Source of the DNA: Natronospira proteinivora
Lineage (GTDB): Bacteria > Pseudomonadota > Gammaproteobacteria > Natronospirales > Natronospiraceae
Length of the DNA: 64,000 nucleotides
Reading direction: 5' to 3'
Assembly (NCBI RefSeq): GCF_024170465.1
Contig: NZ_JALJYF010000002.1
Coordinates: 744,001-808,000 of the forward strand
Shown: piece by piece, positions 27,980-36,742 of the stretch
Position numbering within the stretch: position 1 is the stretch's first letter
How the letters are laid out: each line of letters begins with the position of its first letter
Made by a program: the position numbers and the translations under genes
The notes under the pieces: model-generated
The model's database searches: none
What the model saw: only the letters and a program-made list of their open reading frames with translations
What the model was told of the DNA's origin: nothing

Positions 27980-28024
27980 TTTTTTGAGCCCGCAGTTTCC
28001 CCCAAAACCTAATCCGCCAGGCAT

Positions 28025-28055
28025 AAAAAAACCCCGGCGGATTGGCCGGGGTTTT
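28025..28055 (-). terminator. Bidirectional-looking terminator after cytochrome c5
   Basis: AAAACCCCGGC / GCCGGGGTTTT, an 11-bp stem with a 6-base loop, followed on the minus strand by T residues. It lies 24 bases beyond the cytochrome stop codon. Because the arms are A- and T-flanked on both sides, it could also work for plus-strand transcripts. Confidence 0.85.
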
Positions 28056-28079
28056 GATGCTGCTGGGCAGTGAGTCGCT

Positions 28080-28616
28080 TTAGTCGACTTGCTCCAGCAT
28101 GTAGTCCAGGGCGGCGGCGACCTGTTCGTCGCTCAGGTTGGGATTGCCGCCCTTGGCGGGCATGTAGCCGGCATCCCCCTGGAAGCCCTCGATGGAATGC
28201 TCCAGGAGGGTGTCATAGCCCTTGTCCAGGCGGGCCGCCCAGGCACCATCGTCGCCGGTCACCGGCGCACCTGCCACGCCCTGGCCGTGACAGGTGGTGC
28301 AAGCCTGATTGTAGACCTGCTGGCCATCCACCTCGCCTTCAGCCTCGGCCACGGCATCGTCCTCATCGGACACCGGATCCACGGTGGCAATGTCGACTTC
28401 ACATTCTTCTTCCTGCCCCTTCAGGCAGAGCCGACCCTCCGGTCGGATTCGCTCAGCCAGTTGGGACTGAGCATCCACCGTCTGGACATGGCGGTCAGCA
28501 ATGGTGCGGTTGGCCACCATGTTGGAGATGGCGTAGATCACCACCGTGAACACGATCAGTGCGGCCAGCACCATCATGAAAGTATCAAAAAAATTGCGGT
28601 CTTCTTGCTCGGACAC
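28080..28616 (-). CDS. Membrane-anchored cytochrome c5-type monohaem protein
   Basis: 178 residues from a GTG start at 28616 (AAGGG 9 bases upstream). An N-terminal anchor helix (DTFMMVLAALIVFTVVIYAISNM) is followed by an acidic linker (DPVSDEDDAVAEAEGEVDG) and one haem-binding motif CTTCHG, with MPAKGG giving the likely methionine ligand. Layout and motif spacing match cytochrome c5, a periplasmic electron carrier between quinol oxidising complexes and terminal oxidases. A second cysteine pair upstream (RLCLKGQEEECEV) is unusual and may form a disulfide. It is the first of two c-type cytochromes near dsbA. Confidence 0.9.
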   Translation of the reverse strand: MSEQEDRNFFDTFMMVLAALIVFTVVIYAISNMVANRTIADRHVQTVDAQSQLAERIRPEGRLCLKGQEEECEVDIATVDPVSDEDDAVAEAEGEVDGQQVYNQACTTCHGQGVAGAPVTGDDGAWAARLDKGYDTLLEHSIEGFQGDAGYMPAKGGNPNLSDEQVAAALDYMLEQVD

Positions 28617-30366: not shown

Positions 30367-30984
30367 TCAGTAAAGGCCCTGAATATACTCGGCCACCGCC
30401 TCGATTTCCTCGTCGCTCATGCGGGCGGCAATATCGCGCATCATGCCGGCCCGGTCGGTGCTGCGCTCACCATCACGATAGGCCTCAAGCTGCTCGATGG
30501 TGTACTGGGCATGCTGGCCACTCAACATGGGGTAATTGGCCATGGGCACACCTTCACCACGCGGACCATGGCAGGCAATACAGGCGGTCACGCCGGTTTC
30601 CAGGTTGCCTCCGCGATAGATTTTCTTGCCGGCTTCGCCCAGCTCTTCATCAGCACTGCCCACCTGCGGGACCTGCTGAGCATAGAAAACGGCCAGATCC
30701 TTCATGTCCTGATCGTCCAGATTCTGGACCTGACCCATCATGACCGCATCATCCCGCTCACCGCTCTTGTAAGCCTTGAGCTGTTCATAGGTGTATTTGG
30801 CATGCTGACCGGCCAGTTTGGGCCATTCCGGATTACTGCTATTGCCATCCGGACCATGGCAGGCCGCGCAGGCGGTGCTGTTGGCTTCACCCGCCTCGGC
30901 ATCCCCATCCACCATGGGATCGGCGCTGGCGGAACCGGCCAGGGAGAGGGCAAAGGCCCCGGCGAGAAGGTACAGTGTCCTCAT
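30367..30984 (-). CDS. Dihaem cytochrome c4
   Basis: 205 residues with a signal peptide ([18 protein letters not shown]) and two similar cytochrome domains. Haem motifs are CAACHG (Cys39, Cys42, His43) and CIACHG (Cys135, Cys138, His139); each domain repeats the sequence [21 protein letters not shown] / [21 protein letters not shown], so the protein arose by domain duplication. Cytochrome c4 carries electrons from the bc1 complex to cbb3-type oxidases in the periplasm. It is divergent from engB, the neighbourhood seen in Pseudomonas. Confidence 0.94.
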
Positions 30985-31090
30985 CGTTCTTCAGGCTCCT
31001 GATTTTGCCCGCGCGACCGCGGGGCAGACAAAACGGGAATTCAAAGATCGGGTATTGTACACAAAACCTCGGCCTGGGACCGCAACCGAA

Positions 31091-31711
31091 ATGAAAGCCA
31101 ATCGCAATCCGCTGAAATCTGCCGAATTCCTGATCAGCGCCGCCCGCGCCGCCCAGTTCCCAGATGAGGACAGCCCGGAAGTGGCCTTTGCAGGCCGCTC
31201 CAATGCTGGAAAGTCGAGCGCGATCAATCGCTTGACGGAACAAAAGAATCTGGCCCGGACCTCCAAGACCCCCGGCCGGACCCAACTGATCAACTTCTTC
31301 CAGCTGGCCAACGGGGCCCGCCTGGTGGATCTGCCCGGCTACGGCTTCGCTAAAGTGCCGCCCGCAGTGAAGGAAAAGTGGGCGCGCTTGATCGACAGCT
31401 ATCTCCAAAAGCGCCCCCAGCTGGCGGGCATTATCCACATCATGGACGTCCGCCACCCCATGAAGCCCTTTGATGAGCAGATGCTGGCCTTCGCCAGTCA
31501 GATCGACTGCCCCATCCATATCCTCATGACCAAGGCCGATAAGCTCAAGCGGGGCCAGCAGGCCCGTCAGCTCCAGATTGTCCGCAATGCTTTGGGTGAG
31601 GCCGCCAGTGTTCAATTGTTTTCGGCGGAAAACGGGCAGGGTCTGGAGGAAGCCAGATCGATTGTCGCTGGCTGGCTGAAAACAGAGACAGGATTCAGGC
31701 CTGAGGATTGA
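31091..31711 (+). CDS. engB: Ribosome biogenesis GTP-binding protein EngB (YihA)
   Basis: 206 residues, one TRAFAC-class GTPase domain. G1 is [11 protein letters not shown]2 region [16 protein letters not shown]3 [10 protein letters not shown]4 MTKADK and G5 SAENG. EngB is required for 50S subunit assembly. ATG 31091 gives the standard N-terminus ([19 protein letters not shown]); the frame is open further upstream, but that part overlaps the divergent cytochrome c4 start. In E. coli polA and engB are convergent neighbours with spf between them; here the same pair is convergent with about 2.3 kb inserted. Confidence 0.95.
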
Positions 31712-31824: not shown

Positions 31825-31969
31825 TCCCCTACCGACTCTGTCTCACGATAGTCGAGCGGGATGCCTGCCTCGACTCAATTTGGGCTGCCAAGCCTACCGG
31901 CAGCTCGTCAGCCGGTCGAGAGCGGAGAGCAGTCTCGGCACAGACATTCTTCAAAATGGGGAGCTTTCC

Positions 31970-33163
31970 ATGTCTTATCTCAGCCAACCTCGCTCGCGAA
32001 GGGCTTGCACGAGCGTTCTTGCAATCGTGGCAGCCGGCCTGGTCGGGCCGACAATGGCCGATGTACCCAACACCTTTCAGGCGGGCGACACCGCCAGCGC
32101 CGCCGATGTCAACGAGAACTTCTCGGCCATGGCGGATGCCGTTAGTGATCTTTCCTCGGAACTGGAAGCGCTGGCGAGCGAGAACGAGTCGCTGAGCGAT
32201 GAAGTTGCCGCCTTGCAGGATGCGTTAAGCGATCTTGAGACCGAGAACGCCGCTTTGGAATCAGCACTGGTTGACGCGGAGGCTGAAATCGCCAGCCTGT
32301 CGTCAAATCAAGCTGATTTGACCGGCATGGTCTCGGGCCACTCGGACGAGATCGATAGCCTCTGGGCGGAAACAGATGCCTTGGAGAGTTCGCAGAGCAC
32401 CCTGGGTGACGAGGTCACCGTGCTTTCGGACGACTCCTCTGACCAGGGTGATCGCATCACCGATATTGAAGACAGTGAACTGTTCGAACGGGAAAACTTC
32501 CTGGTTGATCTGGATGAGTTCCTCGAAGTCCACTTCAGCGCCCCCACCGATACCGCGCTTGAAGGGCCAATCCTGCGCCTGACCGGGGCCAACTTTCAGA
32601 TCATCAACGAGTCCCAGGAACAGGAAACCCCCGACGGCACCGGTAATCTGGTGGTTGGTTTCGCCACAGCACGTGAGACCGCAGTTGTCGGTATCGAGTC
32701 CATCTGCTCGGACGGCGAACACGACAATCAGACCGATTGTGAAGCCGCTGGCGAGATCTGGGCGGACGACCACAAGAGCGGTTCCCACAATATTGTGGGT
32801 GGCGACCAGCCGGCCTTCTCGCAGACCGGCGGACTGGTGGTCGGTGCAAACAATGCGATCAACAGCGAGTATGCAACCGTGACCGGGGGCGGAAATAATC
32901 TGGCCAGTGGTAGACAATCCACGGTCAGTGGTGGCGGTTCCACCGGCTCCGACGGCGGAAACATCGCCTCTGGACTGCGATCAGCCATCAGCGGTGGTGC
33001 AGCCAATCACGTAAGCAATAGGAGCTCGACAGTCAGCGGCGGCATCCGAAACGAAATCACGGCAACTAACGCAACAATTGGCGGTGGTAATGACTGCACC
33101 GTTTCGGGCTCATCAAGCTGGGGCGCGATGGACAGCGACGATAACCCGCTGGGAGATTGCTGA
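31970..33163 (+). CDS. Secreted coiled-coil protein with YadA-head-like repeats
   Basis: 397 residues. Signal peptide to about Ala30, then NTFQAGDTASAADVNENF, a motif frequent before coiled coils in marine tail-fibre-like proteins. A long heptad coiled coil follows (about residues 45-170: LSSELEALASENESLSDEVAALQDALSDLE). Residues 190-250 are a separate globular part, then CSDGEHDNQTDCEAAGEIW, and finally YadA-head-like repeats (YATVTGGGNNLASGRQSTVSGG; RSAISGGAANHVSNRSSTVSGG). There is no YadA membrane anchor at the C-terminus, so it is not a standalone trimeric autotransporter. GGGGAG lies 6 bases before the ATG. A lipoprotein gene follows with overlapping stop and start. Function unknown; surface or released trimer likely. 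Confidence 0.82.
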   Translation: MSYLSQPRSRRACTSVLAIVAAGLVGPTMADVPNTFQAGDTASAADVNENFSAMADAVSDLSSELEALASENESLSDEVAALQDALSDLETENAALESALVDAEAEIASLSSNQADLTGMVSGHSDEIDSLWAETDALESSQSTLGDEVTVLSDDSSDQGDRITDIEDSELFERENFLVDLDEFLEVHFSAPTDTALEGPILRLTGANFQIINESQEQETPDGTGNLVVGFATARETAVVGIESICSDGEHDNQTDCEAAGEIWADDHKSGSHNIVGGDQPAFSQTGGLVVGANNAINSEYATVTGGGNNLASGRQSTVSGGGSTGSDGGNIASGLRSAISGGAANHVSNRSSTVSGGIRNEITATNATIGGGNDCTVSGSSSWGAMDSDDNPLGDC

Positions 33164-33339
33164 TGCGTAACAGAAGCGATAGTCGAACCCTGTTGGCAAG
33201 TGCGCTATTGGCATCCTTGCTGATGCTCGGCGCCTGTGCCGATGGTGATCTAGACGATGAGGCCGGAGTCGACCCAGGGGAGGAAGACAGCAACTGCGTC
33301 TGGGGCGAATCCGAATGGGATGATTGCGACTGGAGCTAG
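33163..33339 (+). CDS. Small acidic lipoprotein
   Basis: 58 residues. Lipobox LMLGAC (Cys25) follows a short charged N-terminus and hydrophobic stretch (TLLASALLASLLML). The mature part is short and very acidic, GEEDSNCVWGESEWDDCDWS at the end, with two cysteines and three tryptophans. The ATG shares one base with the stop of the upstream coiled-coil gene (TGATG) and has GGGAG 7 bases upstream, so translation is coupled. I know of no named family; a partner or anchor for the coiled-coil protein is a reasonable guess. Confidence 0.75.
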   Translation: MRNRSDSRTLLASALLASLLMLGACADGDLDDEAGVDPGEEDSNCVWGESEWDDCDWS

Positions 33340-33421: not shown

Positions 33422-33507
33422 GTGGGAGTGCGCCCCGGAAGTCGCGGTGAATTCCAGACCGGAAGCGGCTCCCGCCGCTTTCGTCGCGGCAAGAATGCCG
33501 CTCCCAC
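33422..33507. repeat. REP-family element, diverged pair
   Basis: Begins GTGGGAGTGCGCC and ends GCCGCTCCCAC, with internal CGCGGT and TCGTCGCGGC segments. It is a diverged form of the paired REP palindromes at 1851-1916, 37743-37808 and 42002-42067. It is the first element in the 685-base non-coding stretch before polA. Confidence 0.65.
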
Positions 33508-33563
33508 GGCTTCTGGATGTAGAGAGAGGCCTTGTTCCGCCGGTCTGGCGGCAGTTCGAGTGG

Positions 33564-33664
33564 CCGGTGGTCTGAGCGTGCGCCTCGCGCCGCCCTGGAC
33601 TGAGGCCCGTAGCAGCGCTACGGGCCGAGGGAAGGGCAAGTGAGGCGTGCGCTCAGACCACCGG
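33564..33664. repeat. 101-bp inverted repeat with an internal perfect hairpin
   Basis: Arms 33564-33586 and 33642-33664 are inverted copies of 23 bases with two differences. Inside is a perfect 10-bp hairpin GGCCCGTAGC / GCTACGGGCC at 33604-33626. Weaker matches (GTTCG / CGAAC) continue outward. This is a miniature-element-like structure without a gene. Confidence 0.75.
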
Positions 33665-33778
33665 GCGCCGAACAGCGTGATCGCCCGGCAAACAATAAGC
33701 TAACTAATGTCGATTGCAGGCAATTCCTGGCATTGGGTCGGCCGGAGCCGAGCGGTCCCGCCTGACCGGCGGAACCGC

Positions 33779-33812
33779 AAAAAAAATTGCCCCGGCCTGG
33801 GGAGGCCGGGGC
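33779..33812 (-). terminator. Second terminator of the sRNA/polA region
   Basis: GCCCCGGCCT / AGGCCGGGGC, a perfect 10-bp stem with a GGGG (minus strand CCCC) loop. On the minus strand it is followed by AA and eight T. It lies directly after the sRNA terminator and would catch read-through from it or from polA. Confidence 0.85.
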
Positions 33813-33929
33813 AAAAAAGGGCCCGGTGTCAAAAGGGGGAAAAACACCGGGCCAGGCGACGTCCGGCTTGGGGTGAACCGAACGTCTCCCACTCAGGGAG
33901 GGGAGTGGGCGAGCACCTTGCGATGCTCA
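33813..33929 (-). ncRNA. Predicted C-rich-loop small RNA downstream of polA
   Basis: On the minus strand four hairpins follow each other: 33930-33909 (GTGAGCA/TGCTCGC), 33909-33888 (CCCACTC/GAGTGGG), 33886-33858 (GACGTTCGG/CCGGACGTC), and the terminator 33853-33820 (GGCCCGGTGT/ACACCGGGCC) followed by CTTTTTT. Three of the four loops are C-rich: CCCTCCCT, TTCACCCCAAG and TTTTCCCCCTTTTG, so each could pair with a Shine-Dalgarno sequence. A T opposite G in the third stem is a wobble on the minus strand but an A-C mismatch on the plus, supporting this strand. The place, between polA and engB, is that of Spot 42 in enterics and ErsA in Pseudomonas. Predicted from sequence only; length about 117 bases. 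Confidence 0.6.
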
Positions 33930-33935
33930 CTGGGT

Positions 33936-33983
33936 ATGATGGGGCCGGTTTGGAAAAGTTCCAGGTCGGACTAAAAAATTTTT
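33936..33983 (-). promoter_or_regulatory. Candidate sRNA promoter with UP element
   Basis: On the minus strand AAAAATTTTTT (33983-33973) is followed by CTGGAA (33964-33959), 17 bases and CATCAT (33941-33936). The -35 and -10 boxes are weak matches (3 and 4 of 6), but the A/T tract sits at about -44 to -54, the position of an UP element, and the implied start near 33929 coincides with the first hairpin. Confidence 0.4.
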
Positions 33984-34024: not shown

Positions 34025-36742
34025 TTAATGCGCTTCTTCCCAGTCCACACCAGACTCGGCATCCACCCGCAGGGGCACGGACAGCTCAGCGGCTTGGCTC
34101 ATGCGTTCGGCAACGGCCCGGCAGAAAGCGTCGGTCTGCTGTTCCGGCACCTCGAAGACCAGTTCATCGTGAACCTGCATGATCATCCATACCTCGGGCC
34201 ACTCATCACTTAACCAGGCGGCCACATCAAGCATGGCCCGCTTGATGATGTCGGCGGCCGAGCCCTGCATGGGGGCGTTGATGGCGGTGCGCTCGGCGTA
34301 TTGGCGGCGCTGGCCGTTGCGGGAATTGATCTCGGGAAGATACAGGCGCCGGCCGAACACGGTTTCCACATAACCCTGCTCATGGGCCTGGCGACGGGTC
34401 CGATCCATGTACTCGGCCACTCCGGGATAGCGCTCGAAATAGCGGTTCACGTATTCCTGGGCACTCTGGCGTTCGATGCCCAGCTGACGGGCCAGGCCCC
34501 AGGCGGACATGCCGTAGATGAGGCCGAAGTTGATGGCCTTGGCGGCCCGTCGCTGATCGGGCGCCACCGCCTCGGCCTTGCCGCCGAAGACCTCGGCGGC
34601 GGTGGCACTGTGAATATCCAGGTCCTGTTCAAAGGCCTTGAGCAAGCCCTTGTCGCCGGAGAGATGGGCCATGATCCGCAACTCGATCTGGCTATAGTCG
34701 GCGGCCACCAGGCGCTGACCTTCGGGGGCGATAAAGGCCTTGCGGATGCGCCGGCCCTCGGCCCGGCGAATGGGGATGTTTTGCAGATTGGGGTCGGAGG
34801 ACGACAGCCGCCCGGTGGCCGCCACCGCCTGATGATAGGAGGTATGTACCCGGCCTGAACGGGGGTCGATCATCTGGGGCAGCTTGTCGGTGTAAGTGGA
34901 GCGTAGCTTGGACAGGCCCCGGTGCTCGAGAATCATATGCGGCAGTTCGTGACTGACCGCCAGTTCCTCGAGTACGTCTTCCGCGGTGGAGGGCTGGCCC
35001 TTGGGGGTTTTGCGCACCACCGGCAGCTCCAGGTCTTCGAACAGGATCTTTTGCAGCTGCTTGGGTGAGCCCAGATTGAAGTTCTGCCCGGCCAGGTCGT
35101 GGGCCTGGCGTTCGATGGCATCCATGCTGTCCTTGAGCTCGGCGCTTTGCTCGCGGAGCTTGTCGGCATCCACCATCACGCCGCGTTCCTCCATGCCCTG
35201 CAGGATGGGCACCAACGGCATTTCCAGGTCTTGATACACCCGAGCCAGATTGGGAATGGCTTCCAGCCGGGGCTGGATGGCCTGGTGCAGGCGCAAGGTA
35301 ATGTCGGCATCTTCCGCCGCGTAGGGCCCGGCGGTGTCCAGCTCAATCTGGTTGAAGGTCTTCTGCTTTACGCCCTTGCCGGCCACCGCCTCATAGCTGA
35401 TGGGCGTGATCCCCAGGTACTTCTGGGCCACGGAATCCATGTCGTGGCGGGTGGCGGTGGAATCCAGCACATAGGAGGCCAGCATGCTGTCGTGACGGAC
35501 CCCGGCCAGACGGATGCCGACACCGGCCAGCACATGCATATCGTATTTAATGTGATGACCCACCTTGGCCAGATTGGGATCCTCCAGCAAAGGCTTGAGC
35601 TTTTTCAGGGCGGTGGCACGGTCGATCTGCGTAGGGGCGCCTTCGTAATCATGGGCCAGGGGCAGATAGGCGGCCTCGCCGGGCTCAATGGCGAAGGACA
35701 GGCCCACCAGTTCGGCCTGGCGGTAGTGGATGCTGGTGGTCTCGGTGTCCACCGCCATCAAGTCAGTCTGCTTGAGGCGTTTGATCCACTCGTCCAGCTC
35801 GGCTTCCTTGAGCAGGACCTGGTAATCGTTGTTTTCTTCAGCTGCCCCGGCGCCCGCCTGATCGGGGCTCGCGGTGACGGCATTGCCGCTGCCTTCATCC
35901 AGCTCCCGCAGCCAGCTGTTGAATTCATGACTGCGATAAAGCTCGCGCAGGGTAGCCACATCGGCCTCACCCAGCTTGAGGTCGGATTCGCTCACCCCCA
36001 TGTCCAGATCCAGGCGGATGGTGGCCAGCTCCCGGGACAGCTTGAGCTGCTCGATGTTCTCCCGCAGGCTCTCGCCCACCTTGCCCTTGACCTCATCGGC
36101 CCGGGCCATGATCTGGTCCAGGTCGCCGAATTCCTTGAGCCATTTGACGGCCGTCTTGGGGCCCACCTTGGGCACGCCGGGGATGTTGTCGGACTTGTCC
36201 CCCACCAGGGCGAGATAATCGATGATCCGCTCCGGCGGGATGCCGAACTTTTCCTCCACCCCCGCCCGATCCATGAACTTGCCGGTCATGGTGTTCACCA
36301 GGGTGATGTGCTCATCCACCAGCTGGGCCATGTCCTTGTCGCCGGTGGAGATCAGCACCTGTTGCCCCCGGCTGGCGGCCTCCCGGGCCAGGGTGCCGAT
36401 CACATCATCGGCCTCGACGCCGGATTCCCGCAGCAGGGGCAGGCCCAGGGCCTCGACCATGCTCAGCAGGGGATCGATCTGATCGCGCAGGTCGTCCGGC
36501 ATGGGGGGTCGATGGGCCTTGTAGTCTTCGAACAGCTCGTCCCGGAAGGTCTTGCCGGGCGCATCGAAAACCACGGCGATATGGGCATCGGCGTAGTCCT
36601 TACGCAGACGGCGCAGCATATTGCCCACGCCATAGACAGCCCCGGTGGGCCGGCCATCGGCGGTGGTCAGCGGCGGCAGGGCGTGAAAGGCGCGATAAAG
36701 ATAGGAGGAGCCGTCCACCAGCACCAGATCCGGCTGCTTCAT
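34025..36742 (-). CDS. polA: DNA polymerase I
   Basis: 905 residues (E. coli 928). The N-terminal 5'-3' exonuclease (residues 1-290) shows LVLVDGSSYLYRAFHALPPL, FDAPGKTFRDELFEDYKAHR and SGVEADDVIGTLA; the 3'-5' proofreading domain keeps its acidic pair in MAVDTETTSIHY and DADITLRLH; the polymerase domain has DPNLQNIPIRRAEGRRIRKAF, DYSQIELRIMAHLSGD (motif A), RRAAKAINFGLIYGMSAWGL (motif B) and MQVHDELVFEV (motif C). All three activities should be intact. It fills Okazaki-fragment gaps and repairs DNA. Its ATG overlaps the lptM stop (ATGA). Confidence 0.98.
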   Translation of the reverse strand: MKQPDLVLVDGSSYLYRAFHALPPLTTADGRPTGAVYGVGNMLRRLRKDYADAHIAVVFDAPGKTFRDELFEDYKAHRPPMPDDLRDQIDPLLSMVEALGLPLLRESGVEADDVIGTLAREAASRGQQVLISTGDKDMAQLVDEHITLVNTMTGKFMDRAGVEEKFGIPPERIIDYLALVGDKSDNIPGVPKVGPKTAVKWLKEFGDLDQIMARADEVKGKVGESLRENIEQLKLSRELATIRLDLDMGVSESDLKLGEADVATLRELYRSHEFNSWLRELDEGSGNAVTASPDQAGAGAAEENNDYQVLLKEAELDEWIKRLKQTDLMAVDTETTSIHYRQAELVGLSFAIEPGEAAYLPLAHDYEGAPTQIDRATALKKLKPLLEDPNLAKVGHHIKYDMHVLAGVGIRLAGVRHDSMLASYVLDSTATRHDMDSVAQKYLGITPISYEAVAGKGVKQKTFNQIELDTAGPYAAEDADITLRLHQAIQPRLEAIPNLARVYQDLEMPLVPILQGMEERGVMVDADKLREQSAELKDSMDAIERQAHDLAGQNFNLGSPKQLQKILFEDLELPVVRKTPKGQPSTAEDVLEELAVSHELPHMILEHRGLSKLRSTYTDKLPQMIDPRSGRVHTSYHQAVAATGRLSSSDPNLQNIPIRRAEGRRIRKAFIAPEGQRLVAADYSQIELRIMAHLSGDKGLLKAFEQDLDIHSATAAEVFGGKAEAVAPDQRRAAKAINFGLIYGMSAWGLARQLGIERQSAQEYVNRYFERYPGVAEYMDRTRRQAHEQGYVETVFGRRLYLPEINSRNGQRRQYAERTAINAPMQGSAADIIKRAMLDVAAWLSDEWPEVWMIMQVHDELVFEVPEQQTDAFCRAVAERMSQAAELSVPLRVDAESGVDWEEAH

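Follow-up and report, generated by a model that had tools for sequence, protein, structure and literature searches.

Does the interval between polA and engB in the soda-lake bacterium Natronospira proteinivora encode a small RNA of its own and, if so, how is that RNA related to the sRNAs already described at this locus in other bacteria? A first-pass annotation of the 64,000-nucleotide stretch of DNA analysed here (the window) had proposed an sRNA with four hairpins and three C-rich loops on the minus strand next to polA. Our analysis, a computational one that covered the fold and its covariation, the promoter motif, synteny and relationships to known RNA families, confirmed the prediction that this element is a real small regulatory RNA. 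We consider it likely that it is a trans-acting sRNA, expressed from its own sigma-E promoter, and that it belongs to a family of four-hairpin, C-loop RNAs which includes ErsA, sX13 and anti-hemB. The features of the locus are as follows.

34025 to 36742, minus strand: polA, the upstream neighbour (Pfam DNA_pol_A, 1.4e-164)
33973 to 33983, minus strand: A/T tract AAAAAATTTTT, ahead of the -35 in the manner of an UP element (from sequence)
33956 to 33962, minus strand: putative sigma-E type -35 element GGAACTT (motif and conservation)
33935 to 33939, minus strand: putative sigma-E type -10 element TCATA, after a 16-nt spacer (motif and conservation)
33813 to 33929, minus strand: sRNA gene of ~117 nt (fold, match to covariance model R2 and conservation; inferred 5' end 33931-33928)
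33910 to 33929, minus strand: hairpin H1, loop GCAA (fold; 8/8 pairs covary)
33888 to 33909, minus strand: hairpin H2, loop CCCUCCCU (fold and covariation)
33858 to 33886, minus strand: hairpin H3, loop CACCCCA, with a G-U pair (fold and covariation)
33820 to 33853, minus strand: hairpin H4, the terminator stem, loop UUUUCCCCCUUUUG (UCCCCCU) (fold and covariation)
33813 to 33818, minus strand: T6 tail of the intrinsic terminator (from sequence)
33787 to 33814, minus strand: second terminator hairpin with a CCCC loop, followed by T8 (sequence scan)
30818 to 31711, plus strand: ORF containing engB (ysxC/yihA), the convergent downstream neighbour (Pfam MMR_HSR1, 8.6e-19)

Structure of the RNA

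Four consecutive hairpins between about 33929 and 33820 on the minus strand, followed by T6, were present as the first-pass annotation had described them, as were the three C-rich loops (CCCUCCCU, ACCCC and UCCCCCU). The loop of H2 includes CCUCC, the anti-Shine-Dalgarno sequence of 16S rRNA. The minus-strand fold had a predicted energy of -62.3 kcal/mol (z -6.53), and none of 200 shuffled sequences was equally stable, versus a weaker z of -3.01 for the plus strand. The covariance model R2 (described below) matched the window from 33932 to 33813 at 102.9 bits, a score to be read with the window sequence being part of the R2 training set.

Beyond the T6 tail, the second terminator hairpin recurs at the matching position in both other genomes of the genus, and in L004, a neighbour within the taxonomic family, that place is taken by a GC-rich terminator hairpin. 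Given its CCCC loop and T8, a longer read-through form of the RNA with a fourth C-rich loop is possible.

Conservation, covariation and breadth of the family

Matches at the DNA level were limited to the order Natronospirales plus a few others. A covariance model built from nine sequences of that order (R1) matched 143 of 369 sampled genomes of Gammaproteobacteria, and a second model built from 112 of the R1 matches (R2) matched 203 of the same 369 genomes, representing 149 of 271 genera. As a background for these scores, the second-best R2 match in the window was an ordinary terminator after an ORF (28024-28136, minus strand) at 21.6 bits.

Compensatory substitutions have preserved the stems. 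Across nine relatives, 13 of 35 pairs showed compensatory change, and in the 112 matches all 34 base pairs had changed on both sides while 92.7% of cells were paired. The covariation score was 0.592 versus 0.195 for shuffled alignments and no more than 0.09 when the structure was slid along. Since the alignment had been fitted to the structure, single sequences were also folded alone, and distant members again gave the four hairpins. The loops, conversely, barely vary: the loop 2 core CUCCC is conserved at 92-100% per position, CCCCAA of loop 3 at 86-98% (its CCCC at 92-98%) and the C run of loop 4 at 86-89% per position. Near-invariant C runs in the loops of covarying stems are the signature of loops that read sequence, in keeping with the original suggestion that the C-rich loops are the functional element. 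The window RNA, itself a training member, has the features that define the R2 family, namely four hairpins with covarying stems, conserved C runs in loops 2-4, and a location beside polA and/or engB.

A sigma-E type promoter

The RpoE consensus is GGAACTT-N16-TCnnA. The window motif GGAACTT-N16-TCATA (33962-33935) fits it and is, on motif and conservation, a predicted promoter of the sigma-E (RpoE/AlgU) type, which the first-pass annotation had overlooked. Its position places the 5' end of the RNA near 33931-33928, in agreement with the 5' end at 33929 that had been proposed. The A/T tract said to resemble an UP element does lie at 33973-33983, and an A/T run of at least five within 30 bp upstream of GAAC was found in 69% of 81 promoter-bearing matches versus 20% elsewhere in the loci. 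A scan for a sigma-70 promoter at the locus found none.

A motif of the GGAAC[T/G] type occurred at the equivalent place in all ten of the first relatives compared. Among 98 matches outside the training set (training order), GAACTW-N15-18-TCnn(A/T) was found upstream in 62, versus 45 of 17,819 random windows (0.25%) drawn from the same loci and two of the 98 on the opposite strand. Of 71 spacers, 58 measured 16 nt, and the -10 element mostly stood 2-4 nt before the model start. Genome-wide, the sigma-E pattern was not enriched in the window's genome (8 occurrences versus 23 in a reversed control), and seven of the eight, on reading, were unlike promoters of intergenic genes; the case for the promoter thus rests on its conserved position. 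It is important to note that the upstream GAACTT motif was absent, unclear or decayed at the loci confirmed by Rfam as sX13 and at several beta-type anti-hemB loci, and so control by sigma-E is not universal in the family.

The window's genome encodes a full rpoE gene, itself preceded by GAACTC-N16-TCACA. Upstream of rpoE, GAAC[T/C]-N16-TCnn(A/T) was present in 15 of 17 genomes of the order checked (GAACT in 13, GAACC in two; loci L249 and L355-L370), which suggests autoregulation of rpoE across the order.

Relation to ErsA, sX13, anti-hemB and other RNAs of the polA locus

An Rfam scan at gathering thresholds returned nothing at the window locus. With individual models the window scored 42.4 bits for anti-hemB (RF02837; E 1.9e-8 in 801 bases, gathering 49.5), 36.4 bits for alpha-r7 (RF02342; gathering 60), 34.0 bits for sX13 (RF02232; gathering 50), 18.8 bits for Spot 42 (RF00021; gathering 80) and 14.5 bits for ErsA (RF01719; gathering 50), every score falling below its cut-off. 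The last two values come from the covariance check that the first-pass annotation had recommended. Its analogy with the gene position of Spot 42 and ErsA was sound, the window RNA lying between polA and engB. Its remark that there was no match to ErsA held for the plain score but not for the family, since R2, as an intermediate model, links the two.

ErsA of Pseudomonas (RF01719, Pseudomon-1) lies between polA and engB, depends on sigma-22 and, together with Hfq, acts on algC, amrZ, oprD and anr (PMC8575079, PMC5819304). The window RNA occupies the same interval in the same orientation, with a promoter of the sigma-22/sigma-E type at the level of the motif, and an hfq gene is present in its genome. 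The two RNAs share H1, the C-rich H3 and the C-rich terminator H4, and the ErsA promoter, GAACTT-N16-TCAGA, is likewise of the sigma-E/AlgU type; ErsA differs in having an unstructured U-rich stretch instead of H2. The ErsA loci recovered here had polA upstream, engB mostly downstream and a GAACT[T/A]-N16-TC promoter.

In Xanthomonas, sX13 lies 175 bp downstream of polA and forms three stems with loops of 4C, 4C and UCCCCCU; these loops repress mRNAs that carry G-rich motifs, and they do so without Hfq (PMC3771888). The claim that a multi-loop C-rich design had not been described at the polA locus was therefore mistaken. That RNA was published in 2013 as exclusive to Xanthomonadaceae, in a paper that also considers Spot 42 and alpha-r7 as RNAs of the polA locus and raised the question of related sRNAs there in other bacteria (PMC3771888). 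The window RNA, also downstream of polA, has three such stems with 4C/4C/5C loops in the same hairpin order as sX13 (RF02232), which differs in its lack of a clear GAACTT promoter. The nearest Rfam model is anti-hemB (RF02837, from Burkholderia and relatives), a transcript seen in biofilms of Burkholderia cenocepacia (PMC5688073). It has the H2 loop CCUCCC and the terminator in common with the window RNA; in beta-type members, however, the loops of H3 and H4 are not C-rich, and at several anti-hemB loci the fetched flank contains neither polA nor engB.

The model R2 connects these RNAs. Its matches coincided in coordinates with Rfam calls for ErsA (121-139 bits), sX13 (99-124 bits) and anti-hemB (53-71 bits), and R2 itself scored 33-38 bits at the ErsA loci and 49-53 bits at the sX13 loci. 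None of the 80 loci scanned, which cover part of the R2 training loci, was called ErsA or sX13 by Rfam. Only four of the 80 reached any Rfam cut-off, all four being of the polA/engB type and passing that of anti-hemB. Below threshold, the ErsA model matched seven R1 sites and the sX13 model several. Judged from these sequence comparisons, ErsA, sX13, anti-hemB and the window RNA are probably lineage forms of one family. In the literature searched, we found no paper that names ErsA and sX13 together.

A wider reading would trace every sRNA of the polA-engB interval, even Spot 42 and alpha-r7, back to a single ancestral anti-Shine-Dalgarno RNA of the envelope-stress (sigma-E) response in Proteobacteria, with ErsA, sX13, anti-hemB and Spot 42 as rewired descendants and the window form as near-ancestral; we regard this as conceivable but rather doubtful. 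Spot 42 sits between polA and yihA/engB in the same orientation as the window RNA but has no C-rich loops. The best R2 match in the E. coli interval does fall on spf, at 23.1 bits, which is so close to the terminator background of 21.6 bits that Spot 42 was not accepted as a family member. Alphaproteobacterial alpha-r7 also lies at the polA locus and has three stems with C-rich loops (PMC3771888). It was not recovered by R2, which gave only a few weak matches outside the class Gammaproteobacteria.

A narrower reading would be that C-loop sRNAs between polA and engB arose several times and are structural analogues, the model simply grouping C-rich hairpins that end in a terminator. The sub-threshold scores of the window RNA with the ErsA, sX13 and anti-hemB models, and the level that chance terminators reach with R2, speak for this reading. 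However, the R2 scores at the ErsA and sX13 loci, obtained at matching coordinates with no Rfam-called ErsA or sX13 locus among the training loci scanned, argue against it, as does a single site (L110/L078) that passes anti-hemB gathering and reaches 30 bits under the ErsA model. The RNAs further agree in position, in orientation and in the order of their hairpins, and ErsA has the promoter in common as well. We consider separate origins unlikely.

Genomic position and independence from polA

The usual order at these loci is polA, the RNA on the polA strand, and a convergent engB. Among 96 loci, polA was in the fetched flank of 66 and engB likewise of 66, with both in 49 and at least one in 83; of the 13 loci found only by R2, 11 had polA and/or engB beside the RNA. 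This arrangement raises the alternative that the RNA is only the 3' UTR or terminator region of polA, processed or made by read-through and with no promoter of its own, the more so as the stretch that separates polA from the RNA showed no terminator. At four loci (L035, L045, L261 and L271), however, the RNA and polA lie on opposite strands and the sigma-E-type promoter is kept, so the RNA is not simply a polA 3' UTR. Furthermore, some loci have engB or cytochrome c4 but no polA in the fetched flank, and tandem arrays of two to four sRNA copies occur in which most copies have their own GAAC...TC motif. Transcription solely as the 3' end of polA mRNA, named at the outset as a finding that would count against an sRNA gene, is thus very improbable, and the proposal of a discrete minus-strand sRNA gene is supported.

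Arrays of four copies within one polA-engB interval were seen in L050, L057, L159 (Salinisphaera japonica) and L197 (a Nevskia MAG). The loops of these copies are diverged, and they may be sub-functionalised siblings.

The engB-polA interval of the window also contains, at 31880-33339, an inserted gene for a secreted coiled-coil protein, whose Ser/Gly-rich repeats resemble the head repeats of trimeric autotransporters, followed by a small lipoprotein ORF (33157-33339). Between these and the RNA are a REP-like GC-rich element (~33460-33510) and two nested inverted repeats, one of 18 nt (33534-33775; 94%, 206 nt apart) enclosing one of 23 nt (33564-33664; 91% complementary, 55 nt apart). Together they are possibly a mobile or REP-type element.

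Proposed function and candidate targets

By analogy, the window RNA most likely acts as an anti-Shine-Dalgarno sRNA that is induced by sigma-E and represses mRNAs related to the envelope. RpoE, released under envelope stress, would transcribe the sRNA from the predicted promoter in the polA-engB interval; the C runs exposed in loops 2-4 would then base-pair with Shine-Dalgarno or enhancer sequences rich in G and so block translation of these mRNAs. That sigma-E drives transcription and that the loops bring about repression are both inferred from ErsA and sX13. It is highly unlikely that the RNA is instead a sponge or decoy titrating an RNA-binding protein: conserved loops could be protein sites, and the multi-hairpin layout and tandem copies do resemble protein-sequestering RNAs, but the loops are C runs rather than the GGA of CsrA/RsmA sites and the activity of sX13 loops needs complementary G-rich motifs in the targets (PMC3771888).

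Candidate targets of such an anti-Shine-Dalgarno sRNA were collected in the window's genome by two pattern searches for complementarity to loop 4. Predicted duplexes of this loop with the start region were found for a LemA protein (13 contiguous pairs, -22.1 kcal/mol), a putative lipoprotein (-19.3 kcal/mol), a ComEA-like protein (-16.6 kcal/mol) and FabZ (fabZ; -14.3 kcal/mol), compared with a background from 1500 random 30-nt windows of -14.1 kcal/mol at the 1% level and -19.1 kcal/mol at the lowest. Because strong Shine-Dalgarno sequences would all fit such loops, the list is a prediction only. The rpoE mRNA was rejected as a conserved target, the complementarity of its Shine-Dalgarno region to loop 2 being found in Natronospira and not elsewhere in the order.

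Significance

As far as the literature searched shows, the breadth of the family, its conserved sigma-E-type promoter and the evidence uniting ErsA, sX13 and anti-hemB are new. One RNA family, apparently switched by stress, would extend through much of the Gammaproteobacteria and join three RNAs until now treated as unrelated; over half of the sampled genera (149/271) match a single model, most of them at sites without annotation in Rfam. If this is true, what has been learned of ErsA, sX13 and anti-hemB in one lineage could be applied to another, and the sigma-E response would include an ancient and conserved noncoding branch in bacteria which, to our knowledge, lack MicA and RybB.
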